Shown one piece after another: positions 1 to 33,749 of a DNA stretch of 33,749 nucleotides. The notes beneath the pieces are model-generated. The model ran no database searches. It worked only from the letters and a program-made list of their open reading frames with translations, and was not told where the DNA came from. The stretch spans positions 1 through 33,749 of IMG/VR virus record IMGVR_UViG_3300036770_003748; one strand, given 5' to 3'. Made by a program: the position numbers and the translations under genes. This stretch comes from a virus. Numbering within the stretch: the first letter of the stretch is position 1; each line of letters starts with the position of its first letter.

Positions 1-127
1 CCCAACATTTGCATCTGCAACACAATTCTATTCAGATAGCGGATGTACTACGCCATTAAACGGAAACGACAACTGGTATTCCGATGGTACGACAGCACTA
101 CAAATTAACTCAAGTGGATCAGTAATA
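1..127. repeat. Terminal direct repeat, left copy (contig circularity)
   Basis: Bases 1-127 are identical to bases 33623-33749. A 127-base exact overlap at both contig ends is what a de Bruijn assembler with k=127 leaves on a circular sequence. The overlap lies inside one open reading frame that continues in phase across the join, which supports true circularity rather than a biological long terminal repeat. One copy should be removed, giving 33,622 bp. Confidence 0.95.
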
Positions 128-145
128 AGCACACAATCATGCTAA
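2..145 (+). CDS. 3' end of the Thr-rich tail protein (continues from 33749)
   Basis: When the circle is closed, the frame that starts at 30927 runs through base 33749 into base 128 and stops at TAA 143-145. The last residues form a small Cys-containing domain with WYSDG near its end, and the final residue is a cysteine visible only after closing the circle. The stop overlaps the start of the next gene (ATG at 139) by 7 nt, which suggests translational coupling. Bases 2-127 repeat the region also listed at the right end. Confidence 0.9.
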   Translation, partial: PTFASATQFYSDSGCTTPLNGNDNWYSDGTTALQINSSGSVISTQSC

Positions 146-1083
146 AACAAGTAAGATATATTTGCGCTCAGCCTGCCAACACATACTACGCTTGGCAGGT
201 TGAAGTTATGCTTAACAACTTCGAATCTATGGGCATCAATCTTAATCAGGTTGATATAGTATGCGAGAAACCTGCTTGTCGCACTCCCGAAGAATGGACA
301 AAGCTGGCAGAGCGCTATCCTGCACGATTCTTCTTCTATTGTGATAAAAGAGCCGAAAGAGGCTACATATCAAGCATCCGACCCAATATATTAAAACAGC
401 ATTTTGCACAGCATCCTGAACTATCTCAGGATGTTTTGTTTTATCACGATTGCGATATTGCCTTTACTCGTCCACCGAGTGAGTGGATAACGCAAGAAAT
501 GATTGAGGACGACAACTGGTATGGATCAGACACCAAGTGGTACATTGCATACGATTACATTGCAAGCAAAGGCGAACAGGTACTGGATATGATGGAAAAC
601 ATTATGCGTATGCCTGAAGGTATGGTCAAAGCTAATAATGACAACGCCATTGGCGCTCAGTATTTAATGAAGAACATAGATGATCGTTTCTGGGCAAGAG
701 TCGAGATGGACTGTGAGCGCTTATACGTGAAGGTAACAGAGCTTAATAAAGAACTTAAGCAAGAGAATCCGAATTATCATGAGCTTCAAATATGGTGCGC
801 TGATATGTGGGCGCTATTGTGGAACGCTTGGAAAGATGGAGTGACAACATTATGTCACCCTGCATTTGATTTTAGTTGGGGAACGTCTTCTCTTGATGAT
901 TATAATAAGATGAATATCTTTCATAATGCAGGCGTTGTAAGTGAAAATACAGGGTTATTCCACAAGGCAAAATACATGAATAGCTACCCTTACGGACTTA
1001 ATCTTGAGATCAAGCCAGATACTGCGAGCGCTGAATACTACAAATGGATTAAAAAAGCAGAACTAAATAGTGCATTGATATGA
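139..1083 (+). CDS. Glycosyltransferase-like protein, possible peptidyl O-glycosyltransferase
   Basis: A 314-residue protein with no signal peptide, probably cytoplasmic. It has a DxD motif at D104-C-D106 in a hydrophobic strand context (LFYHDCDIAF), as in metal-dependent GT-A glycosyltransferases. The N-terminal YYAWQVE segment (residues 16-22) and the late FHNAGV / FHKAKY segments recall peptidyl-serine/hydroxyproline glycosyltransferases of the SGT/HPAT type; this is recognition from memory, not a search result. The gene starts inside the stop of the Thr-rich tail-tip gene and ends in an ATGA overlap with a methyltransferase gene. I infer a role in sugar modification, perhaps of the threonine tracts in the tail protein. 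Glycosyltransferase fold fairly sure; substrate unknown. Confidence 0.65.
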   Translation: MLKQVRYICAQPANTYYAWQVEVMLNNFESMGINLNQVDIVCEKPACRTPEEWTKLAERYPARFFFYCDKRAERGYISSIRPNILKQHFAQHPELSQDVLFYHDCDIAFTRPPSEWITQEMIEDDNWYGSDTKWYIAYDYIASKGEQVLDMMENIMRMPEGMVKANNDNAIGAQYLMKNIDDRFWARVEMDCERLYVKVTELNKELKQENPNYHELQIWCADMWALLWNAWKDGVTTLCHPAFDFSWGTSSLDDYNKMNIFHNAGVVSENTGLFHKAKYMNSYPYGLNLEIKPDTASAEYYKWIKKAELNSALI

Positions 1084-1595
1084 ATACAAAAATAGTAAAT
1101 AGCGAAGATCCCAAAGAACATTGGAGTGATATAAAAAAAGTAGATGGAATGATTGTTATGGACTTAGGATGTGGTTGGCTATTTCAACCACACGAATGTA
1201 CACCAGAGTATTTTATAAATAGAGGCGCAAAAATGGTTGTTGGAATTGATGCTGCTGAAAGTGAAATACAACAACTTACAGAGAGATATCCAGATCATAT
1301 ATTTATTTGTAAAAATATAAGTACAAAAGATGATTTGTGCGAACTGTTTAATAAGTATATGCCAGATGTTGTCAAAATGGATATAGAAGGATATGAATCA
1401 CTAATTGATCAGATGGATGCAAATGACTTCACATCTATTCAAGAGCTTGCTATTGAATATCACAATACAATATGTAAAGAAATATTGGATAGAAAATTAC
1501 CAAAACTTGGATTTGCAATAACAAATGTAAATCAATTTGGATGGTTTTGTACAGATACAAATGTAATGGGAATTATGCACGCAATAAGATTATGA
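1080..1595 (+). CDS. FkbM-type SAM-dependent methyltransferase
   Basis: A 171-residue class I methyltransferase. SAM-binding motif I is MDLGCGW (residues 27-33) and is followed by VVGIDA (53-58). The FkbM hallmark KMDIEGYE lies at 99-106. FkbM-family enzymes often methylate sugar hydroxyls, which fits its position between glycosyltransferase-like genes. It overlaps the preceding gene by ATGA and the next by ATGA, so the cluster is probably translated as a unit. Base composition here is visibly more AT-rich than in flanking genes, hinting at separate acquisition. At 171 residues it is shorter than many FkbM proteins but appears to hold the whole catalytic core. Confidence 0.75.
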   Translation: MNTKIVNSEDPKEHWSDIKKVDGMIVMDLGCGWLFQPHECTPEYFINRGAKMVVGIDAAESEIQQLTERYPDHIFICKNISTKDDLCELFNKYMPDVVKMDIEGYESLIDQMDANDFTSIQELAIEYHNTICKEILDRKLPKLGFAITNVNQFGWFCTDTNVMGIMHAIRL

Positions 1596-2467
1596 TTAAA
1601 ATCATTAAAGCAACATACGGTGGACAAGATTGCACAAGTCAAATACAGTCAAAGATTGTAAATAATAGATTGATCATTAAGTCTTGCAATGACATTATTG
1701 GTGATCCTGCTGTAAATAGTGTTAAGCATCTTGTTATAGAATATGAGCATGAAGGCAAAATACAAGAAGAAAAAGTCATTGAAGGCGCATACTTATCACT
1801 TCCAAAAGTAAAGTACAAACGACTTGGCATATTCTATACGAATAACAACAATGTCAAGACAAGTCCGACAATAATAAAAAGCCTTGAGACAATAAAGATA
1901 GCAGCCGAAGGCAAAGCGGATATATTGACAAGTGTATGGAATAGAATTGAAGGCAATCCATTCCAGCAGTTTGAGGCATGGACAAAAACATCATCACACT
2001 TAAATCAGCTACTGCAAATTATGCAATTACTATATGTGGCAAGGGAAACAGGTGATTATGAATATGTCAGCTTTCTTGAGCATGATGTTTTATATCCTGA
2101 AGGATATTTCGATTTTCCAGAATTTGATAACGGACAGGTTCTTACAAATATGAACTATGGCGGTTTTTGTATTGACGGATGGCAAAAACGCAATCAAAAC
2201 GATGAGCCATTCCATCAAATGACAATGAGATTTGATGATGCCATAAAACATTGTGAATCCATAATACCTAATGCAATACTAAGCAATGCAGGTTTAATAG
2301 AGCCTCAAAACATGAATAGAATACAATGGAATTGCATAAATGAAGCAATACACGTTAATCACGGATTACACTTTACCAGTCATTTTAGTATCTACTCAAA
2401 AACACAGGTAGAAAAAAATCACAATTACTGGGGAAGCTATAACAATTTTCTTCATTTATTGCAATAA
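1592..2467 (+). CDS. Glycosyltransferase-like protein with N-terminal beta-rich domain
   Basis: A 291-residue protein. I chose ATG 1592 because it overlaps the previous stop as ATGA; an in-frame ATG at 1541 lies deep in the upstream gene. Residues 1-72 (ATYGGQDCTSQI, then GDPAVNSVKHLVIEY and an EG...LSLP ending) look like a DUF3395-type beta domain seen at the C-terminus of DNAJC11. Residues 80-290 look GT-A like: a strand YEYVSFLEHDVLYP at 157-169 holds an acidic EHD motif where a DxD is expected, followed by MNYGGFCIDGW. Very AT-rich, like the methyltransferase gene before it. Function inferred from motif and neighbours. Confidence 0.55.
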   Translation: MIKIIKATYGGQDCTSQIQSKIVNNRLIIKSCNDIIGDPAVNSVKHLVIEYEHEGKIQEEKVIEGAYLSLPKVKYKRLGIFYTNNNNVKTSPTIIKSLETIKIAAEGKADILTSVWNRIEGNPFQQFEAWTKTSSHLNQLLQIMQLLYVARETGDYEYVSFLEHDVLYPEGYFDFPEFDNGQVLTNMNYGGFCIDGWQKRNQNDEPFHQMTMRFDDAIKHCESIIPNAILSNAGLIEPQNMNRIQWNCINEAIHVNHGLHFTSHFSIYSKTQVEKNHNYWGSYNNFLHLLQ

Positions 2468-2508
2468 TTTTTTCTTATTTTTGATTGAACCATAAAACAC
2501 ACACACAT

Positions 2509-3357
2509 ATGCCAGTAGTAAAAGACGTACTGATAGGACTCCCAATCTACGATAACCGTATTGAGTATGATATTTTGCAGGAATGTTTGGAAGCCAAAAA
2601 TGATCCTGAATGCGTTGTAAAGGGCATTCAGTATTACAATGGCGACTCGCTCATTCCTCGTGGAAGAAATAAGATTGCAAAGATGTTTCTCGAGACAGAT
2701 TGCAAGTACTTAATGTTCATTGACAGCGATATACGCTTCCAGCGTTGGATGATAAACAAGCTAAGAGCGCATGACAAGGGTATTATTGGTGGTGTCTACC
2801 TAAAAAAGACGCTACCGTATCAGCCTGTCATGAATGCTTTTCTTGGTGAAGAAAATGGTCTTGCCATTATGCGTGAGATTGGAACAGGATTTATGATGAT
2901 CCGAAGAGATGTATTTGGAGCATTTAGATCTATGTGGCCAGAGCATGATTATCTCAATGATGATGATGAGCAGGCAGGAACATACCATGACTGGTTTAAG
3001 ATAGGCGTTTTCAGAGGTAAAGATGACGACAAGACAAAGCCGGGTCGTTACCTTTCTGAGGATTACTATTTCTGCCAAGAAGCAGCACAGTTGGGCTACA
3101 AGACCTACCTTGATCGAAGCATACTAACGCAGCACGTTGGTAAGATGACGTATCCTACAAAGGATGAGAGCTTGCTCAATGGCGCATCTGTTCTTATGGA
3201 ACGTATGCGTCCTGACGCTGAAATCGATAAAAATGTATTTGAGCGCATTGTTACGGCTGCACAAGCCCAGATCAATGCACGTAACCCATCCAGCTTGGAT
3301 GACCAAATTCCACCAGTATCGGAGGCAAATATAAAAGAGATTGGAAGTGAGCCATGA
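2509..3357 (+). CDS. GT-A family glycosyltransferase
   Basis: A 282-residue protein from ATG 2509; a TTG at 2485 would add eight residues and is less likely. The fold begins with VLIGLPIYDN, followed by the conserved RGRNKIAKMFLE segment, then strand YLMFIDSDIRF with the DSD motif at D72-S-D74, and IIGGVYLKK. This order is typical of phage and bacterial GT2-like transferases. It probably transfers an activated sugar in the host cytoplasm. It closes the sugar-modification cluster that starts at 139 and overlaps the next gene by ATGA. Acceptor unknown: virion protein, host glycan and modified base are all possible. Confidence 0.7.
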   Translation: MPVVKDVLIGLPIYDNRIEYDILQECLEAKNDPECVVKGIQYYNGDSLIPRGRNKIAKMFLETDCKYLMFIDSDIRFQRWMINKLRAHDKGIIGGVYLKKTLPYQPVMNAFLGEENGLAIMREIGTGFMMIRRDVFGAFRSMWPEHDYLNDDDEQAGTYHDWFKIGVFRGKDDDKTKPGRYLSEDYYFCQEAAQLGYKTYLDRSILTQHVGKMTYPTKDESLLNGASVLMERMRPDAEIDKNVFERIVTAAQAQINARNPSSLDDQIPPVSEANIKEIGSEP

Positions 3358-17907: not shown

Positions 17908-18309
17908 ATGGGAAATAAATCTACCTGCATACCAAGCGTACAAGATGAGATCTGTGAATGGATAGCATCCGGTAAATCGCTACGTTCATACTGCGCACAA
18001 GATGGCAAGACACCGTTCAGAACAGTACTGCAATGGTTAAGTGATGATGCGAATGAAGATTTCCGCACCAAGTACGCGCGCGCAAGAGAGCTACAAGCCG
18101 AAGTTATGGCTGATGAGCTTATGGATATTGCAGATAAAGACAAGCCTGATCAGCTTGTCCTGCAACATGATAAGATGAAGATTGAGACAAGGCAGTGGAT
18201 AGCCTCGAAGCTATTGCCTAAGAAGTACGGCAACAAGCTCGAATATGAAGACGTAAGCAAACAACAACGCAAGCTGGTTATCATTACAAGTGATAAAGAC
18301 ATCGAATGA
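17908..18309 (+). CDS. terS: Terminase small subunit
   Basis: A 133-residue protein. Residues 10-50 form a helix-turn-helix like segment (DEICEWIASGKSLRSYCAQDGK, then TVLQWL) used for recognising the packaging site. Residues 85-115 hold the motif DKMKIETRQWIASKLLPKKYGNK, which I recognise from phage small terminases. It selects phage DNA and brings it to the large subunit. Unusually, two glycosyltransferase-like genes and a spike-base-like gene separate it from the large subunit gene. Confidence 0.78.
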   Translation: MGNKSTCIPSVQDEICEWIASGKSLRSYCAQDGKTPFRTVLQWLSDDANEDFRTKYARARELQAEVMADELMDIADKDKPDQLVLQHDKMKIETRQWIASKLLPKKYGNKLEYEDVSKQQRKLVIITSDKDIE

Positions 18310-18977
18310 ACATCACAGTACTCACTCCTACGATTGGCACTAAAGACCTTGAGCGATGCGTTAATAGCGTATCGACTCAGACAATAAACAACACACACAG
18401 CGTCCGGCATTTAGTCGTGGCCGATGGCAAGCAGTATATTGCCGATGCAACTAAGTACGCAATGAAAGGATGGCAGGGTGAAGGACTTACGCCTCGCATA
18501 TACACCGTGCCTGACAATACCGGTGGTGGTGGATGGTATGGTCATCGTATCTATGCCTACTACTCACAGCTACTGGACTGCGACTACTTGTTTCTATTGG
18601 ATGAAGATAACACATACGATCCTGAGCATATTGAAAGCCTGATACCTATCGCAGACACATATGGCTTTGCATGGTCATTGCGTAAAGTCTTCAAGAAGGA
18701 TGGCGAGTTTATGGGATATGATAACCAAGAGTCTATTGGGCTGCACCTAAACGGACAAGGTTATGCTCTGGTTGATACATCGTCATGGTGCTTCCGTAGC
18801 GATGCCATCCCTATGCTTACCAATATCTGCGGACAATGGGGCGCTGACCGTCAACTTACGAGCGCAATGCTTGCACGATATGGATCGCTTGTAGAAGCCT
18901 GTAGCAATAAGCATACCATGAATTACTACGCACCTGATAACCTAATTGATTACTTCACACAAATCTGTACTCCTTGA
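18306..18977 (+). CDS. Glycosyltransferase family 2-like protein
   Basis: A 223-residue GT-A protein: TVLTPTIGTKDLERCVNSV (4-22) is the nucleotide-sugar binding start; LVVADGK (36-42) and TVPDNTGGGGWYGHR (67-81) follow; YLFLLDEDNTYDP holds the acidic D99-E-D101 motif. The gene overlaps the small terminase gene by ATGA and the next glycosyltransferase-like gene by 4 bases (TTGA). It lies outside the main sugar cluster at 139-3357 but may act with it. Product and acceptor unknown. Confidence 0.75.
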   Translation: MNITVLTPTIGTKDLERCVNSVSTQTINNTHSVRHLVVADGKQYIADATKYAMKGWQGEGLTPRIYTVPDNTGGGGWYGHRIYAYYSQLLDCDYLFLLDEDNTYDPEHIESLIPIADTYGFAWSLRKVFKKDGEFMGYDNQESIGLHLNGQGYALVDTSSWCFRSDAIPMLTNICGQWGADRQLTSAMLARYGSLVEACSNKHTMNYYAPDNLIDYFTQICTP

Positions 18978-19627
18978 AGCCTATAATCCTATCGCCTTAC
19001 ATGGCAAACGTCAACCCTGCGGTAAAGCAAGCGCAGTTACGTGTTATGAACAAGCTATGTACCGAGATACCATTCCATCAGGTACTTACAACTAAGCGAC
19101 ACGGTGATACGTTAGACAACCTTGCACGCTCGTGTATGGCTAAGGGTTACGATACGGTTATGTTTATGGATATTGATGCTATACCCTTATCAAGCTATGC
19201 TATAGAATACACCTTGCAGAAAGCACATCGTGGGCATCTGATAGGCAACATCCAGCGATCCAATCACATACAAAACGATCAGCACGTATTTGTTGCTCCA
19301 TCGTTTATGGCTATGCAGTTAAACTACTGGACTTGGGCAGGTCAACCATCGTTTGTAGAGACAGCTCGTGGTGATGTAGCTGAAGAAGTTACTTACGCAT
19401 GGGAAGATAAAGGCTGGCCTATGCAGATGTTTATGCCTACAGGCTTTGAGCAAGCACCACTTGAAGTACCACAGTGGAATCTCAAAGACGGTATGCCTCC
19501 ATTCGGATGCGGTACAACCTTCGCACTTGGCATGACGGATATGTCTTATCACGCATTTCAGATACGTACAGGCAACATGGTTGAGAGATTCTTGACCAAA
19601 TGTGAACAAATTATAGCAGAAAATTAA
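18974..19627 (+). CDS. Glycosyltransferase-like protein with DID motif
   Basis: A 217-residue protein. A TTG start at 18974 overlaps the previous stop as TTGA and keeps the opening strand KPIILSPYMANVN; ATG 19001 is the alternative. The strand TVMFMDIDAIPLS holds a D66-I-D68 motif placed like the DxD of GT-A enzymes. Later segments include GNIQRSNHI, VFVAPSFMAM and a final MSYHAFQIR. It is not a standard GT2 enzyme but keeps the DxD context. Paired with the gene before it; ends 19 bases before the late promoter-like site. Confidence 0.55.
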   Translation: MKPIILSPYMANVNPAVKQAQLRVMNKLCTEIPFHQVLTTKRHGDTLDNLARSCMAKGYDTVMFMDIDAIPLSSYAIEYTLQKAHRGHLIGNIQRSNHIQNDQHVFVAPSFMAMQLNYWTWAGQPSFVETARGDVAEEVTYAWEDKGWPMQMFMPTGFEQAPLEVPQWNLKDGMPPFGCGTTFALGMTDMSYHAFQIRTGNMVERFLTKCEQIIAEN

Positions 19628-28140: not shown

Positions 28141-28373
28141 AAGCCGCAGAAGAGATGTTTGCTACCTCCTACAATTACACGACAGGAGGTGGATCTGGAA
28201 GTGCTAAGAAGTCGATATGGGTCAACAGGATTGGAACATATCGCTACTATGCGCAGATACTATCGGGCTTTGATCCAATAAGGGCGGATCAAATCTTTGA
28301 CACGAGAGCAGACCAGATAGCTGAGTCATTTGTATCCAAAATGTGCTACGATTACGTGGAGCCTAAAAAATAA
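28116..28373 (+). CDS. Tail assembly chaperone, frameshift extension (T part of G-T)
   Basis: After the -1 slip the frame continues HDAAVSLKAAEEMF and then a Gly/Ser linker (TTGGGSGSAKK) and a helical end (RADQIFDTRADQIAESFVSKM), stopping at TAA 28371-28373. The joined product from 27835 would be 179 residues. The first in-frame ATG in this frame is 28155, with no good ribosome site. As in lambda G-T, the extension probably recruits the tail tube subunit. The stop overlaps the tape measure start (TAATG). Confidence 0.78.
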   Translation, partial: FHDAAVSLKAAEEMFATSYNYTTGGGSGSAKKSIWVNRIGTYRYYAQILSGFDPIRADQIFDTRADQIAESFVSKMCYDYVEPKK

Positions 28374-30469
28374 TGGAAGAGTTAAAGTATAAAGTTGCGG
28401 TTGAAACGGATCGTATAGAGCCTGATGATCTTATTGATTCTGAAACAATACAAGTTCTTGTTGAGTTAAATGGCAGGATTGAAGACTATAAAAGACAGTT
28501 AAAAGAACTTGAGGAGGTTCAAAAGACTAATAAAGGTCTTACATTTGAGCAAAGACAAGCTCAAGAAGAAATAAAACTTGCCCTTAAAGAAGCACAGAAT
28601 GAGTATCGACAAATCAATAAGTCTATACAGACTAATGATGCTGCATTAAAAGCAAATACAAATACATACAAAGGTCTTGTTGACGAAAACAAAGCCTTAA
28701 TGGAGGCAATGCGTAATTTGCCTCTTGATGATACCACAGGAGAATTACAAAGATTACAAACGCAATACAATAAGAATAATCAAGAGCTTAAAAAGTTTGA
28801 TACTGCTCTTGGTAATCATCAACGCAATGTAGGTAATTACAAAGATGGTCTAAATGATCTTGGTGGAACATTATCTGGATTACCGGGATCGATAGGTAAA
28901 GTAGGCGCTGGCATGAAATCACTTGATGTGATTATGAAAGCAAGTGTATGGGGTCTTGTTATTTCAGCTGTTGCAGCTCTTATAAATCAATTAAGCAAAC
29001 TACAGCCCGTAGTAGACTTTGTAACAAAACAATTTCAGGTATTATCAAGCATTGTTAAGTTTTTTGTTGACAATACAGCTTCAGCGCTTGGTCTTATTGA
29101 GAAAAACAATATATCACTTGCAGAAACTGTACGAGTCACAAAGGCACTTGCTGATGCTGAGATTCAATTACGTGAAGCAAAGCGTCTACGTATTGTTGAA
29201 TCAGCAAATGAGCAATTAATAATATCAGAGCTACGCTTGGCAGCTGCTGATATGACAAAATCAGAGCAAGAGCGTCTTGATATATTAAGACAGATTGAAG
29301 AAATAGAAGGAGAATCTCTACAAAAGAAACTTAGAATTGCTGCTATTGAATTTGGTCAGGCTAAAACACGAGTTTTATTGAGCGAAAGCACTGAGGAAGA
29401 ATTAGAGAATCTTGCAAAATTAGAAGCCGAACTTAAATTATTACAAGTAGAAAGCAATAACTTTTTACGTGAGAATACTACTAAACGTACTGAACTTCAA
29501 AATAGAGTAGAAAATGAAGAAAAATTACGTAGTGAAAAAGCAGCAGAAGAACGAAAAAAGAGACTTGAGGAAGAACGCATAGCTATTGAAAGTCTGGCAG
29601 AAGCACGTCAAGCTGTGGATCAAAAAATGTTTGACGAGCTTGGCAAAAGTAATGAAGAATATCTTGATCTTGGAATTGAGCTAACTCCTACTTTAGATAC
29701 AACCGATGTTTCTAAAGGTTCTCTTCTTGTTGCTGAATTGTTTAATAATACACTAAAACAGCAAACAATAGCTCGTTTAGAAGAAGAAGGTAGATTTGCA
29801 GAATCAATGGAAGAGCAAAAGCAATGGCGCATTCAAGAACTTACTCAGATGTTTATTGCTAATGGTCTTGATGCTAATCAAGCTGCTCTTGACGCTCAAT
29901 TTCAAGCAAATCTTGAATATCAGGATAAGATAAAACAAGCCGAACAAGATACTGCTGACTTTAAGAAAGGTTTAACAGATCAAGATATTGCTAATGCACA
30001 ATTTGCAGCAAACGCAGTTTTATCTATAGGTAAGAATATATTTGGTGAATCTAAAGCTTTGGCTGTAGCACAAGCTGTTATTGACTCACTTGGTGCGGCT
30101 GTTAGCGTTATGCGTGACACTAAAGGGCCAGTATGGAAGCGCCTTGCAAGTGCTGCTGTTATTTTAAGTGCTGGATATGCCAATGTCAAAAAGATTCTAT
30201 CTACAAAGCCGGGAAGTGCAAATACGTCAGGGGCATCGGCAACAGCATCTTCGGCTATGTCATCAATGGCAGTTACTCCGGCTGGTACGCTTGTCAACCA
30301 GGGACTTGCTGGTGGTATGTTTGCACAACAGGTAGCTGGTGAATTTACTCCGGCAACATCACGTGAGCGTAATATAACGATTGACGCTAATGTAGACCGC
30401 AGAGGTCTGGCAATAGCCGTGCGTGAAGGCGAAAGATCAATCCGTACACAACAATTTGATTACAAGTAA
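28373..30469 (+). CDS. Tape measure protein
   Basis: A 698-residue protein. Residues 25-150 are a long coiled coil (LKELEEVQKTNKGLTFEQ), a hydrophobic segment lies near 190-208 (VWGLVISAVAALINQLSKL), more coiled coil runs from 255 to 420, and a second helical hydrophobic part lies near 560-600 (ALAVAQAVIDSLGAAVSVM). Residues 625-665 are Ala/Ser/Gly-rich. This layout and the gene order fix the call. At about 1.5 Å per residue it would give a tail near 100 nm. Confidence 0.88.
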   Translation: MEELKYKVAVETDRIEPDDLIDSETIQVLVELNGRIEDYKRQLKELEEVQKTNKGLTFEQRQAQEEIKLALKEAQNEYRQINKSIQTNDAALKANTNTYKGLVDENKALMEAMRNLPLDDTTGELQRLQTQYNKNNQELKKFDTALGNHQRNVGNYKDGLNDLGGTLSGLPGSIGKVGAGMKSLDVIMKASVWGLVISAVAALINQLSKLQPVVDFVTKQFQVLSSIVKFFVDNTASALGLIEKNNISLAETVRVTKALADAEIQLREAKRLRIVESANEQLIISELRLAAADMTKSEQERLDILRQIEEIEGESLQKKLRIAAIEFGQAKTRVLLSESTEEELENLAKLEAELKLLQVESNNFLRENTTKRTELQNRVENEEKLRSEKAAEERKKRLEEERIAIESLAEARQAVDQKMFDELGKSNEEYLDLGIELTPTLDTTDVSKGSLLVAELFNNTLKQQTIARLEEEGRFAESMEEQKQWRIQELTQMFIANGLDANQAALDAQFQANLEYQDKIKQAEQDTADFKKGLTDQDIANAQFAANAVLSIGKNIFGESKALAVAQAVIDSLGAAVSVMRDTKGPVWKRLASAAVILSAGYANVKKILSTKPGSANTSGASATASSAMSSMAVTPAGTLVNQGLAGGMFAQQVAGEFTPATSRERNITIDANVDRRGLAIAVREGERSIRTQQFDYK

Positions 30470-30927
30470 TGAATAAGCAGATAACTCAATGCCGCTTTAA
30501 TGTTGCTATCGATAATGGATCGACTAATACCACTGTATCCGGATTTCCTAAAAATATCAACGTATTCAGCGGATCTTATTCATATCGTCCTTACTATTAC
30601 ACAGGACAGCCTTATGACGAAGCCATAAATGGCCGCCTACGCTCTCAACTTGGTGGCTACAGGTTCGAGGCTACCCTTGTATGGGATCGTCTGTTAAACA
30701 GCCAGCCATTGCTTGATTTGCTAAACAATGCGTATACTACAGGTACGGGTGAAGTACGTATCACATTCTTTCCGGATGCAACAAATACGACAATCAGCGA
30801 AGAGGTAGTCATTGCTGATACTGTATGGGCTGCAAACCTTGAATCTACGATAGTGCGCCAGCCGTTATCGGTTTCACTTATTGGCAAAAACGTAAGCGCT
30901 ACGATACCAAGTTTCTACAAAGTCTAA
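30469..30927 (+). CDS. Distal tail-like protein
   Basis: A 152-residue beta-rich protein directly after the tape measure, where distal tail (Dit) or minor tail proteins are found. It includes GSYSYRPYYYTGQPYDEAIN, GGYRFEATLVWDRL and EVRITFFPDATN strands and ends IGKNVSATIPSFYKV. No strong family match by eye; the assignment is from position. Both borders share a base with their neighbours (TAATG). Confidence 0.5.
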   Translation: MNKQITQCRFNVAIDNGSTNTTVSGFPKNINVFSGSYSYRPYYYTGQPYDEAINGRLRSQLGGYRFEATLVWDRLLNSQPLLDLLNNAYTTGTGEVRITFFPDATNTTISEEVVIADTVWAANLESTIVRQPLSVSLIGKNVSATIPSFYKV

Positions 30928-33749
30928 TGCTTAACACGGTACCTTTCAAATCTCTTTCTGGTAATGTATGGGTTGAAATAGATGCAGGAGCAACTACGAA
31001 TGCTACGTTGCAACTGCTTGATATGAGTACTATAAACTTTGAATTTGATTTAATGCCATCGGATCAAACCGTTGCATCCATTGGTGGTATTGCCGGTGCT
31101 ACCAGTCTTGTATTTGATGACTACATGAGCAACCGCTCATCGTTATATTCAACGCTTATTGATCGCTTAGGTAATTACTCAGCATCGCAGAATTTAGATG
31201 TTCCAAAAGCAAAGACAACGCTATACCTACAACCAAGAGGATCTGCAACATCATTTAGGTTTCCTTTTGAGTTTACGGCTTCAGATATAACCACAGATTT
31301 AAGAAGCAAACAGACAACAATAGAATTAAGTCCAAGAACGTCAAATCTTAACGTAGGAACATGGGTTACTAATGTAACAAATCACTTTCCATCTAAAATA
31401 TCCTACGAGTCAAATCAATCCTTTTTTGTAAACGCTTGGGCTTCTGGTGATTTTATTTATGACGTAATATCCGAGCTTGATACTTCTACGGGTAATACTA
31501 CAATTTTTAGAAGTGCAAACATTGTAGAAGCAAGTGGCGGTGGAGTTAATGCTATTTTTGCATTTGAGCGATTAACAGATATACTTAATTCACCAATCAA
31601 TATAGATGATGCTGATTACACGAGTTTAATGTTTGTACATGATACACCTATGTACTTTGCAAATAGCAATAGCGTGTATGCTAAGGTTCAGGCATTTGCT
31701 GGTATGGAGGGCGCTATTTTTGGTTCTGCCTTTAATGTGAACTTCTATCTAAATAGATCTACAAATATTTATAATGTCATGGTTACTAATAACGACATTG
31801 TAGATCTTAAGTTTGTTGCACAAGATAGGGATATAAACGCTGCTGTTGTTTCATTTACAAATACAAAAGCCAAACCAGATGGGACAAATATATCCAATGG
31901 ATTCCCTAAAATTACAAACAGCACAGGTGGCGTTCCGGGATGGCTGTCTGGATCACGTGAAATAAAAGCAAGTATATCAGGATTCTATCCACAACTCAAT
32001 CGTGGCGTTTATAATAGCGTAGACAACTTTGTAAATGGCGACATAACTACATTTTTTGCTATAAATGATGCTTTTTTGGCTAAAACAGGAGCTACTCAAT
32101 ATGCAAATGCTGCTGGAGTATCTGGTTTTAGAATACAACTCGACTTATTAGGTGTTGATAGAATTAAGCCTTGGGAAGTTATTCAGTTTGACAATACCGT
32201 TGCAGAGATATACAGATTAAAATATTTTAGACCTACATCGCTTTCTTATGATCTAAAAGGCGATCGTATACGTGTCGAGGCTTACGAGGTTGGATCTGCA
32301 CCTGTTCCTCCAACTACTACAACCACAACATCAACTACCACAACCACAACCGCAGCTCCTACTACTACTACAACGGCAGCGCCTACTACTACTACAACGT
32401 CAGCTCCTACAACGACAACGACAGCAGCTCCTACTACGACTACAACAACGGCTGCGCCTACAACAACCACAACTACGGCAGCACCTACCACTACGACTAC
32501 AACCACAACATCAACTACTACAACCACAACGACAGAAGCGCCTACAACTACAACAACATCTACAACCACACCACCACCTGTATTTACTTTTGCTTGCTAT
32601 GGTACAAGTGCAAGCCCTGTTGATGGATTTGGAAGCGATACTGATGCCTGTGCAGGTAGTGGCGAGGTGGCTGTAGACTTGTATAGCTATGATTCTGTTC
32701 TACAGGATGGAACGATTCTGTACACTGATAGCGTACATCCGCTTACAAATAAATTAAGCCCAAGCCAACAATTCTTTGCCTATATTGACGGTAGCCTTGT
32801 TCGTAATAGCTTCCGAGTTGTTGCTAATGGTACAGGTACTGTGTCCTTATATGAAGCCTGCCCTGCAACGACTACGACTACCACAACAACAAGTACTACT
32901 ACAACAACATTAGCACCTGTTCAATATACTATTCTACATGACGGTTCTCAAGATGGCATTCCAACACCTTGGTCAACAGAGCAAAATGCTTGTTCTGGTA
33001 GATACACAGCTCTTTCGACATCTGCTTATGGAACAGGTGGAGTAGTAGCTGGACAATCATTATTTAGAGAAGTTACACTTGTAAATCCTCTTGCAGATGG
33101 ATTCTATGTATATGATGTTAATATCATAGAAATAGCTGGTGGATCTGGTGTTATTTCTACAGTAGATTTAATTAGTTCTGTTTGCCCAACAACTACAACA
33201 ACTACAACAAGCACTACTACAACCACAACTCTTGCTCCTATATACATTGGAATAGATCAAGATGCAGTATGTGTTACTAAAGCAAATCAAATATCATTGT
33301 CTTTTGATAGTGGGGAAACATTCTGCTCAACAACAAATTACTATGGCGATTTCTCATCATACCTTCTTGATGACATAATTTACTTATCTCGTGAAGATCA
33401 AGTTGTAACTGCAAAAGTAACTGATGCGTCAGCAAGTGGAACAGCGGAAAGACAAATAGCTTGTCAATCATGTAGTACACCTATAACTACTACTACTACT
33501 ACAACTACTACTACAACGACTACATTACCACCATGTAATGAGTTTAGTGGTTTATCAGAGGAAGTATCAGCACTAAACGCCTGTTCATCATGGCCTGGTG
33601 CGACAACTATTTATGGAAATAACCCAACATTTGCATCTGCAACACAATTCTATTCAGATAGCGGATGTACTACGCCATTAAACGGAAACGACAACTGGTA
33701 TTCCGATGGTACGACAGCACTACAAATTAACTCAAGTGGATCAGTAATA
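30927..33749 (+). CDS. Tail-tip protein with mucin-like threonine tracts (continues at base 128)
   Basis: The frame runs from ATG 30927 to the contig end and on to TAA 143-145: 946 residues. Residues 1-460 are beta-rich and likely bind the tail (start LNTVPFKSLSGNVWVEIDAG). Residue 463-548 is a Thr/Pro/Ala tract (units such as TTTTTTAAP). Three more Thr tracts of 13-14 residues lie at 648-661, 755-768 and 854-866. They separate four domains (549-647, 662-754, 769-853, 867-946), most with two or more Cys; the first and last share an AC...YTDS/YSDS pattern. Thr/Pro tracts are typical O-glycosylation sites. The gene overlaps the glycosyltransferase-like gene at 139. Likely role: host recognition. 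Confidence 0.82.
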   Translation, partial: MLNTVPFKSLSGNVWVEIDAGATTNATLQLLDMSTINFEFDLMPSDQTVASIGGIAGATSLVFDDYMSNRSSLYSTLIDRLGNYSASQNLDVPKAKTTLYLQPRGSATSFRFPFEFTASDITTDLRSKQTTIELSPRTSNLNVGTWVTNVTNHFPSKISYESNQSFFVNAWASGDFIYDVISELDTSTGNTTIFRSANIVEASGGGVNAIFAFERLTDILNSPINIDDADYTSLMFVHDTPMYFANSNSVYAKVQAFAGMEGAIFGSAFNVNFYLNRSTNIYNVMVTNNDIVDLKFVAQDRDINAAVVSFTNTKAKPDGTNISNGFPKITNSTGGVPGWLSGSREIKASISGFYPQLNRGVYNSVDNFVNGDITTFFAINDAFLAKTGATQYANAAGVSGFRIQLDLLGVDRIKPWEVIQFDNTVAEIYRLKYFRPTSLSYDLKGDRIRVEAYEVGSAPVPPTTTTTTSTTTTTTAAPTTTTTAAPTTTTTSAPTTTTTAAPTTTTTTAAPTTTTTTAAPTTTTTTTTSTTTTTTTEAPTTTTTSTTTPPPVFTFACYGTSASPVDGFGSDTDACAGSGEVAVDLYSYDSVLQDGTILYTDSVHPLTNKLSPSQQFFAYIDGSLVRNSFRVVANGTGTVSLYEACPATTTTTTTTSTTTTTLAPVQYTILHDGSQDGIPTPWSTEQNACSGRYTALSTSAYGTGGVVAGQSLFREVTLVNPLADGFYVYDVNIIEIAGGSGVISTVDLISSVCPTTTTTTTSTTTTTTLAPIYIGIDQDAVCVTKANQISLSFDSGETFCSTTNYYGDFSSYLLDDIIYLSREDQVVTAKVTDASASGTAERQIACQSCSTPITTTTTTTTTTTTTLPPCNEFSGLSEEVSALNACSSWPGATTIYGNNPTFASATQFYSDSGCTTPLNGNDNWYSDGTTALQINSSGSVI
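32313..32570 (+). repeat. Threonine-codon (ACN) repeat tract
   Basis: About 258 bases made almost only of ACA, ACC, ACG and ACT codons, interrupted by Ala-Pro, Ser-Ala-Pro or Glu-Ala-Pro triplets. Smaller tracts lie at 32868-32909, 33189-33230 and 33486-33524. All four Thr codons are mixed, which limits the length of exact DNA repeats, but slippage or recombination could still change tract length. Confidence 0.9.
33623..33749. repeat. Terminal direct repeat, right copy
   Basis: Identical to bases 1-127; see the left copy. It lies inside the last domain of the Thr-rich tail protein. Confidence 0.95.

Follow-up and report, generated by a model that had tools for sequence, protein, structure and literature searches.

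The Locus

The window analysed here, a stretch of 33,749 nucleotides, is the whole of the virus record IMGVR_UViG_3300036770_003748 in IMG/VR. The 127 bases at its start recur unchanged at its end, and the record is therefore a circular map (33,622 bp) of a complete phage, in which a tail gene spans the two ends. The window carries the gene set of a tailed phage, including terminase, portal, protease, major head protein, and head-tail adaptor genes. A likely tape-measure gene (28373-30469) is followed by a gene at 30469-30927 and then by the gene with which this report begins, whose product is a tail-region protein of 946 residues with long Thr tracts. Residues 1-941 are encoded at 30927-33749 (+ strand), and the end of the protein and its stop codon lie at 1-145 (+ strand) beyond the circular junction, where bases 1-127 duplicate the end of the record. 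Reading through the junction confirmed the length and the four Thr tracts that had been described previously. On the + strand, these tracts comprise residues 461-551 (32307-32579; blocks of five to eight Thr with AAP, S, or EAP spacers), 646-661 (32862-32909), 754-768 (33186-33230), and 854-866 (33486-33524).

This protein had been placed at the tail tip in the preliminary description. This label derives from the gene order after the likely tape-measure gene, and the structural model of the N-terminal part is poor (pLDDT 43.5) and was left out of the evidence. The N-terminal 455 residues are kept in one related locus (L043) at 59% identity and in three others (L026, L029, and L031) at about 30%. 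Within the tracts, Thr is encoded by ACA (43), ACT (35), ACG (12), and ACC (11), and this use of all four codons rules out a simple DNA microsatellite. Furthermore, all 23 (ACN)6-like matches in the window are located in the Thr-tract gene, and none was found in 100 shuffled sequences.

A Predicted Glycosyltransferase of the PHROG 4417 Family

The stop codon of the Thr-tract gene overlaps the start of the next gene by 7 nt (ATGCTAA at 139-145), as was reported in the preliminary description. This gene (139-1083, + strand) encodes a predicted glycosyltransferase (GT) with a GT-A fold, an assignment based on an AlphaFold model and conserved motifs. The protein matches the PHROG 4417 family over its full length (E = 1e-60; residues 6-308 on positions 2-292 of the 293 in the profile). 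The family is annotated as “unknown function” in PHROGs and as “hypothetical protein” in nearly all records, and it includes the “prophage pi2 protein 34”-type hypothetical proteins of Enterococcus, Lactobacillus, Lactococcus, and Staphylococcus phages, which have been unannotated so far.

The AlphaFold model, built from 36 relatives, is of high confidence (pLDDT 96, pTM 0.92). The nearest solved folds are those of glycogenin (1ll0; Z = 14.7 over 230 residues, rmsd 3.4), LgtC (Z = 14.1), and the GT8 protein 3tzt (Z = 13.6), and the catalytic domains of GlyE and UGGT are also among the nearest structures. Glycogenin, LgtC, GlyE, and UGGT are nucleotide-sugar GTs of the GT-A fold, and the substrates of glycogenin and UGGT are proteins. 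The phage protein shares with these GT8/GT24-type enzymes the GT-A fold over nearly its whole length, a DxD motif, and an HxxG motif followed by Lys; it is 6%–13% identical to them, lacks the KPW of the HxxGxxKPW signature, and matches no PDB chain by sequence and no Pfam family at E 0.01, and hence not the Glyco_transf_8 (GT8) profile. A resemblance to SGT/HPAT enzymes (plant arabinosyl- and galactosyltransferases), which had been suggested as a point to be checked by structure prediction, found no support in the fold matches listed, from which those enzymes are absent; few structures of that family may have been solved, and such a likeness may yet exist.

Both aspartates of the DxD motif, D104 and D106, are present in every one of the 36 near and 12 divergent family members that were compared. 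Across the members from Bacteroidota and Bacillota, the invariant residues are D104-x-D106, GAQ (172-174), W219, M223, H262, G265, and K276; the HxxG motif reads HNAG, with H262, A264, and G265 invariant, and K276 is the Lys that follows it. The motifs are conserved from Enterococcus phages to freshwater phages. By analogy with GT8, the invariant residues would include the ligands of the metal and of the diphosphate, and the model makes a UDP-sugar the likely donor.

Thr Tracts Beside the GT Gene in Environmental Relatives

We collected the best 80 relatives of the GT in IMG/VR, which are 54%–63% identical to it, with one record identical. In most of these loci, a Thr tract is encoded in the gene immediately 5' of the GT gene. 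When near-duplicates were removed, the directly upstream gene carried a Thr tract in 36 of 42 loci, compared with 34 of 600 other genes of the same loci (Fisher 3.5e-33; the loci are the best hits of each search and not a random sample, and because the counted phages are related, this and all p-values below overstate independence and are indicative only). The co-occurrence in related phages for which the preliminary description had proposed a survey was thus observed. (ACN)7 was present in 40 of 50 records with the GT. In several loci that look like exceptions (L012, L035, L050, and L065), the Thr-tract gene lies kilobases away from the GT gene, and L058, a record of 49.5 kb with the GT and without (ACN)7, is apparently a real exception.

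In the reverse direction, the GT was found in 11 of 50 virus records selected for poly-Thr and in none of 50 control records selected for (GCN)9. These controls are weak, as they probably differ from the test set in base composition, and they were replaced by the homologue controls described below; relatives of the head protein of the window, also considered as a control, included too few long contigs to be informative. Related phages with a Thr tract and no GT, which the preliminary description had set against its own proposal, were looked for, and none was found among the relatives of the tagged proteins described below. In unrelated viruses, Thr tracts without the PHROG 4417 GT are common: they make up the other 39 of the 50 poly-Thr records, which include many fragments, in which absences carry little weight. 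A Thr tract alone therefore does not predict a system of this kind.

Among 21 checked poly-Thr records without the PHROG 4417 GT, three have a GT2 gene. They include two virus records of 77 and 83 kb (L090 and L149), which encode proteins of about 190 residues near the head and tail genes with C-terminal runs of 12–14 Thr. This suggests, from too few cases, that tags of this kind may also be served by a different enzyme.

C-Terminal Thr Tags in Phages of the Bacillota

The PHROG 4417 family occurs in 74 records of isolate phages, mainly those of Lactobacillus, Enterococcus, Staphylococcus, and Lactococcus. Its gene lies mostly within the late structural cluster, typically beside the gene for the major tail or the major head protein or a short way from it. 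Each of the first six isolates examined has poly-Thr in, or at the end of, a virion protein, which is the major tail protein in most of them. In a scan of bacterial genomes, tracts were found at 36 of 42 GT loci.

In the Bacillota, the tract usually forms the C-terminal end of virion proteins: the major head protein and the major tail protein are tagged in this way, and some phages have a third tagged protein, small and encoded close to the head genes. The tagged proteins match the PHROG families of major head (phrog_10) and major tail (phrog_88) proteins. In Trichococcus collinsii, for example, tags read ..TTTTTTAPATTTTTTGV and ..TTTTTTEEETTTTTTGV, and in Lacticaseibacillus phage R9.1, the head and tail proteins both end with ..TTTTTTTSHV. 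The last two residues of the tags on non-homologous proteins of the same phage are shared in 22 of 51 pairs, when 5.3 are expected and the maximum in 10,000 shuffles is 14. The likeness, within one phage, of tags on non-homologous proteins points to a single trans-acting enzyme.

In Staphylococcus phages SA2 (L086:3117-3930) and F1 (L503:3200-3922), the major tail protein ends with ..TTTTTTTTP, and Thr-rich sequence goes on at length in an open frame that overlaps the gene or lies near it, which looks as though a frameshift might extend the acceptor stalk.

Matched Homologue Controls

The strongest test was to hold the acceptor family constant and to score the tag with and without the GT. For the major tail protein, we used 30 homologues of the protein of a Halobacillus karajensis prophage, found in an order-wide search. 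The tag is present in four of the five that adjoin a GT gene and in none of the 25 without one (p = 1.8e-4). The fifth GT-adjacent homologue ends with GTTTSTTSA, and tagless homologues without a GT simply stop at the position of the tag (e.g., ..FGTAHPLAGPEGA). For the major head protein, whose homologues were scored within one family of bacteria, the tag was found in seven of eight GT-positive genomes versus 0 of 11 GT-negative genomes (p = 1.6e-4), and the gene for the eighth, tagless protein is on a contig other than that of the GT. One GT-negative homologue (L493) has a fibronectin/Ig-like C-terminal end in place of the Thr tag of its relatives. In isolate phages, the head and/or tail protein is tagged in 6/6 GT-positive phages and in 0/9 GT-negative homologues (p = 2e-4). 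Finally, across 159 genomes of one bacterial family, (ACN)7 occurs in nine of 11 GT-positive genomes and in 21 of 148 GT-negative genomes (p = 4e-6), and few of the latter 21 cases are coding Thr tags. With these controls, chance or shared ancestry alone can be rejected as the source of the adjacency.

The controls also bear on the view that the Thr tracts are mere flexible linkers, or recombination points for the shuffling of tail domains, and are unrelated to the GT. The tracts do divide modular Cys-containing domains in the protein of the window and in its relatives, and Thr tracts occur without this GT in many viruses that are unrelated. However, the C-terminal tags of the Bacillota head and tail proteins join no domains and yet follow the GT, and Thr is maintained by mixed codons. 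We therefore regard this view as very improbable.

Instead, a tag that is found on unrelated virion proteins only together with one enzyme, and that is self-similar within each phage, is best read as an acceptor. Because the GT and the Thr runs appear and disappear together across bacterial phyla, the most likely reading is that these phages cover their own virions with sugars. The proposal in the preliminary description that the phage GT is dedicated to the Thr tracts of its own structural protein is in this respect strongly supported, both by adjacency and by the co-presence and co-absence of tag and enzyme.

A different target for the enzyme can be imagined: the GT would alter a receptor or a wall polymer on the host surface against superinfection, and its proximity to the tail genes would be incidental. 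Phage-encoded GTs that convert the serotype of the host are well known. They are also mentioned in PMC12619734. Homologues of the GT without a nearby Thr tract were found at a locus of a delta MAG (L373) and in Pedobacter, Chitinophaga, Mucilaginibacter, and Bacteroidaceae, and these loci weigh against Thr as the acceptor, as the chromosomal copies without tags fit an action on the host. Nevertheless, an action on the host surface gives no account of C-terminal Thr tags that are present on head and tail homologues only when the GT is present, nor does it fit the position of the GT gene, mostly inside the late structural cluster; we consider it very improbable.

It should be mentioned that five of the bacterial homologues (L370, L372, L374, L375, and L406, from Pedobacter, Chitinophaga, Mucilaginibacter, and Bacteroidaceae) are open frames of 503–619 residues, in which the PHROG 4417 domain is followed by extra sequence. 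In four of the five, this sequence resembles a second GT-A domain, and there are no Thr tags nearby. The copy in Pedobacter frigoris comes after a LanC-like gene and so may glycosylate a peptide product.

Proposed Mechanism and Relation to Known Systems

We propose, with a probability of roughly 85%, that GTs of the PHROG 4417 family O-glycosylate poly-Thr acceptors on virions, a reading based on the sequences and the structural model. What is seen is that the genes are adjacent, that tag and enzyme are present together and absent together, and that the fold and the conserved motifs are of GT-A and metal-binding type. From these, we infer a glycosyl transfer with Thr as acceptor and a nucleotide sugar as donor, and a role for the product; for an enzyme of the GT-A fold that acts on a target rich in hydroxyl groups, the simplest reaction would be the O-glycosylation of Thr. 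In the Bacteroidota-type phage of the window, the enzyme encoded at 139-1083 would link sugar to the hydroxyls of the four Thr tracts, which would act as linkers or stalks between Cys-containing domains of the product of the adjacent, overlapping gene. In phages of the Bacillota, sugar would be added to the short tags with which the major tail and head proteins, and at times the small head-region protein, end. The product would be a virion that bears clustered O-linked sugars at its exposed ends or stalks, and candidate roles are shielding, protease resistance, and altered adsorption. In phages that live in water, resistance to proteases or adhesion is just as likely a role as shielding from antibodies.

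Co-occurrence indicates partnership and not chemistry, and the tag might instead recruit a GT-fold protein for another purpose, such as an assembly factor or a non-sugar transfer. However, the DxD and HxAG/K positions never vary among the 12 divergent members, as would be the case for a metal-dependent GT, and poly-Thr is rich in hydroxyl acceptors; of the explanations weighed here, this one seems to us the least probable.

It is also probable, with less confidence than for the reaction itself, that tag and enzyme form a transferable system. One GT family would recognize poly-Thr wherever it is placed, and phages of several phyla would have repeatedly tagged unrelated virion proteins (capsid, tail tube, small products of virion genes, and tail-tip stalks) to form mucin-like coats.

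Virion glycosylation is reported for mycobacteriophages Che8, Corndog, and Myrna (Freeman et al. 2023, Cell Host Microbe, as cited in PMC12363180, PMC12619734, and PMC11256854). According to two of the citing papers, phage-encoded GTs glycosylate the capsid and tail-tube subunits at their C-termini, and the resulting coat shields the particles from antibodies (PMC12363180, PMC12619734). The candidate tags of the Bacillota relatives are at the C-termini of the same two proteins, where glycosylation is predicted here from sequences and a model. The proposed system differs in that its acceptor would be a long Thr tract, which in the window is internal to a tail-region protein, and in that the genes for the GT and the acceptor are often contiguous. 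The family HMM has no significant match to the Che8 GTs gp108–gp110 (at most 2.7 bits), and the Che8 head and tail proteins end with ..NKTGS and ..SDGS, with no poly-Thr tag. Therefore, a similar outcome would be reached by a different enzyme and acceptor, and the two are not the same system. In open-licence papers, no report was found of phage tail proteins rich in Thr, or with poly-Thr, that are paired with GTs; what is new here is the comparative result, namely that one GT family is paired with Thr tracts or tags across phage lineages.

If the proposal is correct, phage protein glycosylation arose in different lineages with unrelated enzymes. A widespread “hypothetical” family, present in well-used isolates that include Enterococcus phages phiFL1A and VPE25-like phages, Lactococcus phage bIL285, Lactobacillus phage Semele, and Staphylococcus phage SA2, thereby receives a function that can be tested, and phages without known glycosylation are predicted to carry sugars on head and tail, with the acceptor named beforehand. 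The proposal also offers a simple acceptor tag for studies of O-glycosylation, and has a bearing on the interaction of phages with mucus, antibodies, and host surfaces.

Accessory Genes

The preliminary description had placed the GT at the head of a cluster with an FkbM methyltransferase and further GT-like genes. The gene at 1080-1595 (+ strand) encodes a putative SAM-dependent, FkbM-like methyltransferase, whose match to TIGR01444 is weak (E = 7e-4; 20.0 bits, below the curated cut-off of 37.7), as is that to phrog_5108 (E = 9e-4). Of the 80 related loci, 34 have a homologue, which in most cases is the gene that follows the GT. The product of 1541-2467 (+ strand) is GT-like by a motif (EHDV) alone, with no match to a GT family, and has homologues in 48 of the 80 loci, mostly close downstream of the GT gene. 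The GT gene and these two genes thus form a recurrent cassette in the environmental relatives. In Bacteroidota phages, these two genes might extend or cap the glycan, a more tentative proposal than that for the GT itself. The O-methylation that had been suggested depends on the weak methyltransferase match; the gene often adjoins the GT gene in relatives, and its place in a core system is unsupported.

Of the other GT pair that had been linked to this system (18306-19627), a true GT2 domain was recovered (PF00535, E = 1.5e-6); as neither gene has a homologue in the 80 GT-bearing loci, the pair was rejected as a component. Homologues of the gene at 2485-3357 (phrog_1574) are almost confined to the closest relatives among the 80 loci. 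The N-terminal part of the product of 1541-2467 shows a weak likeness to rhamnose-binding lectins (E = 0.001) and to a DnaJ-C11-type domain (E = 0.003).
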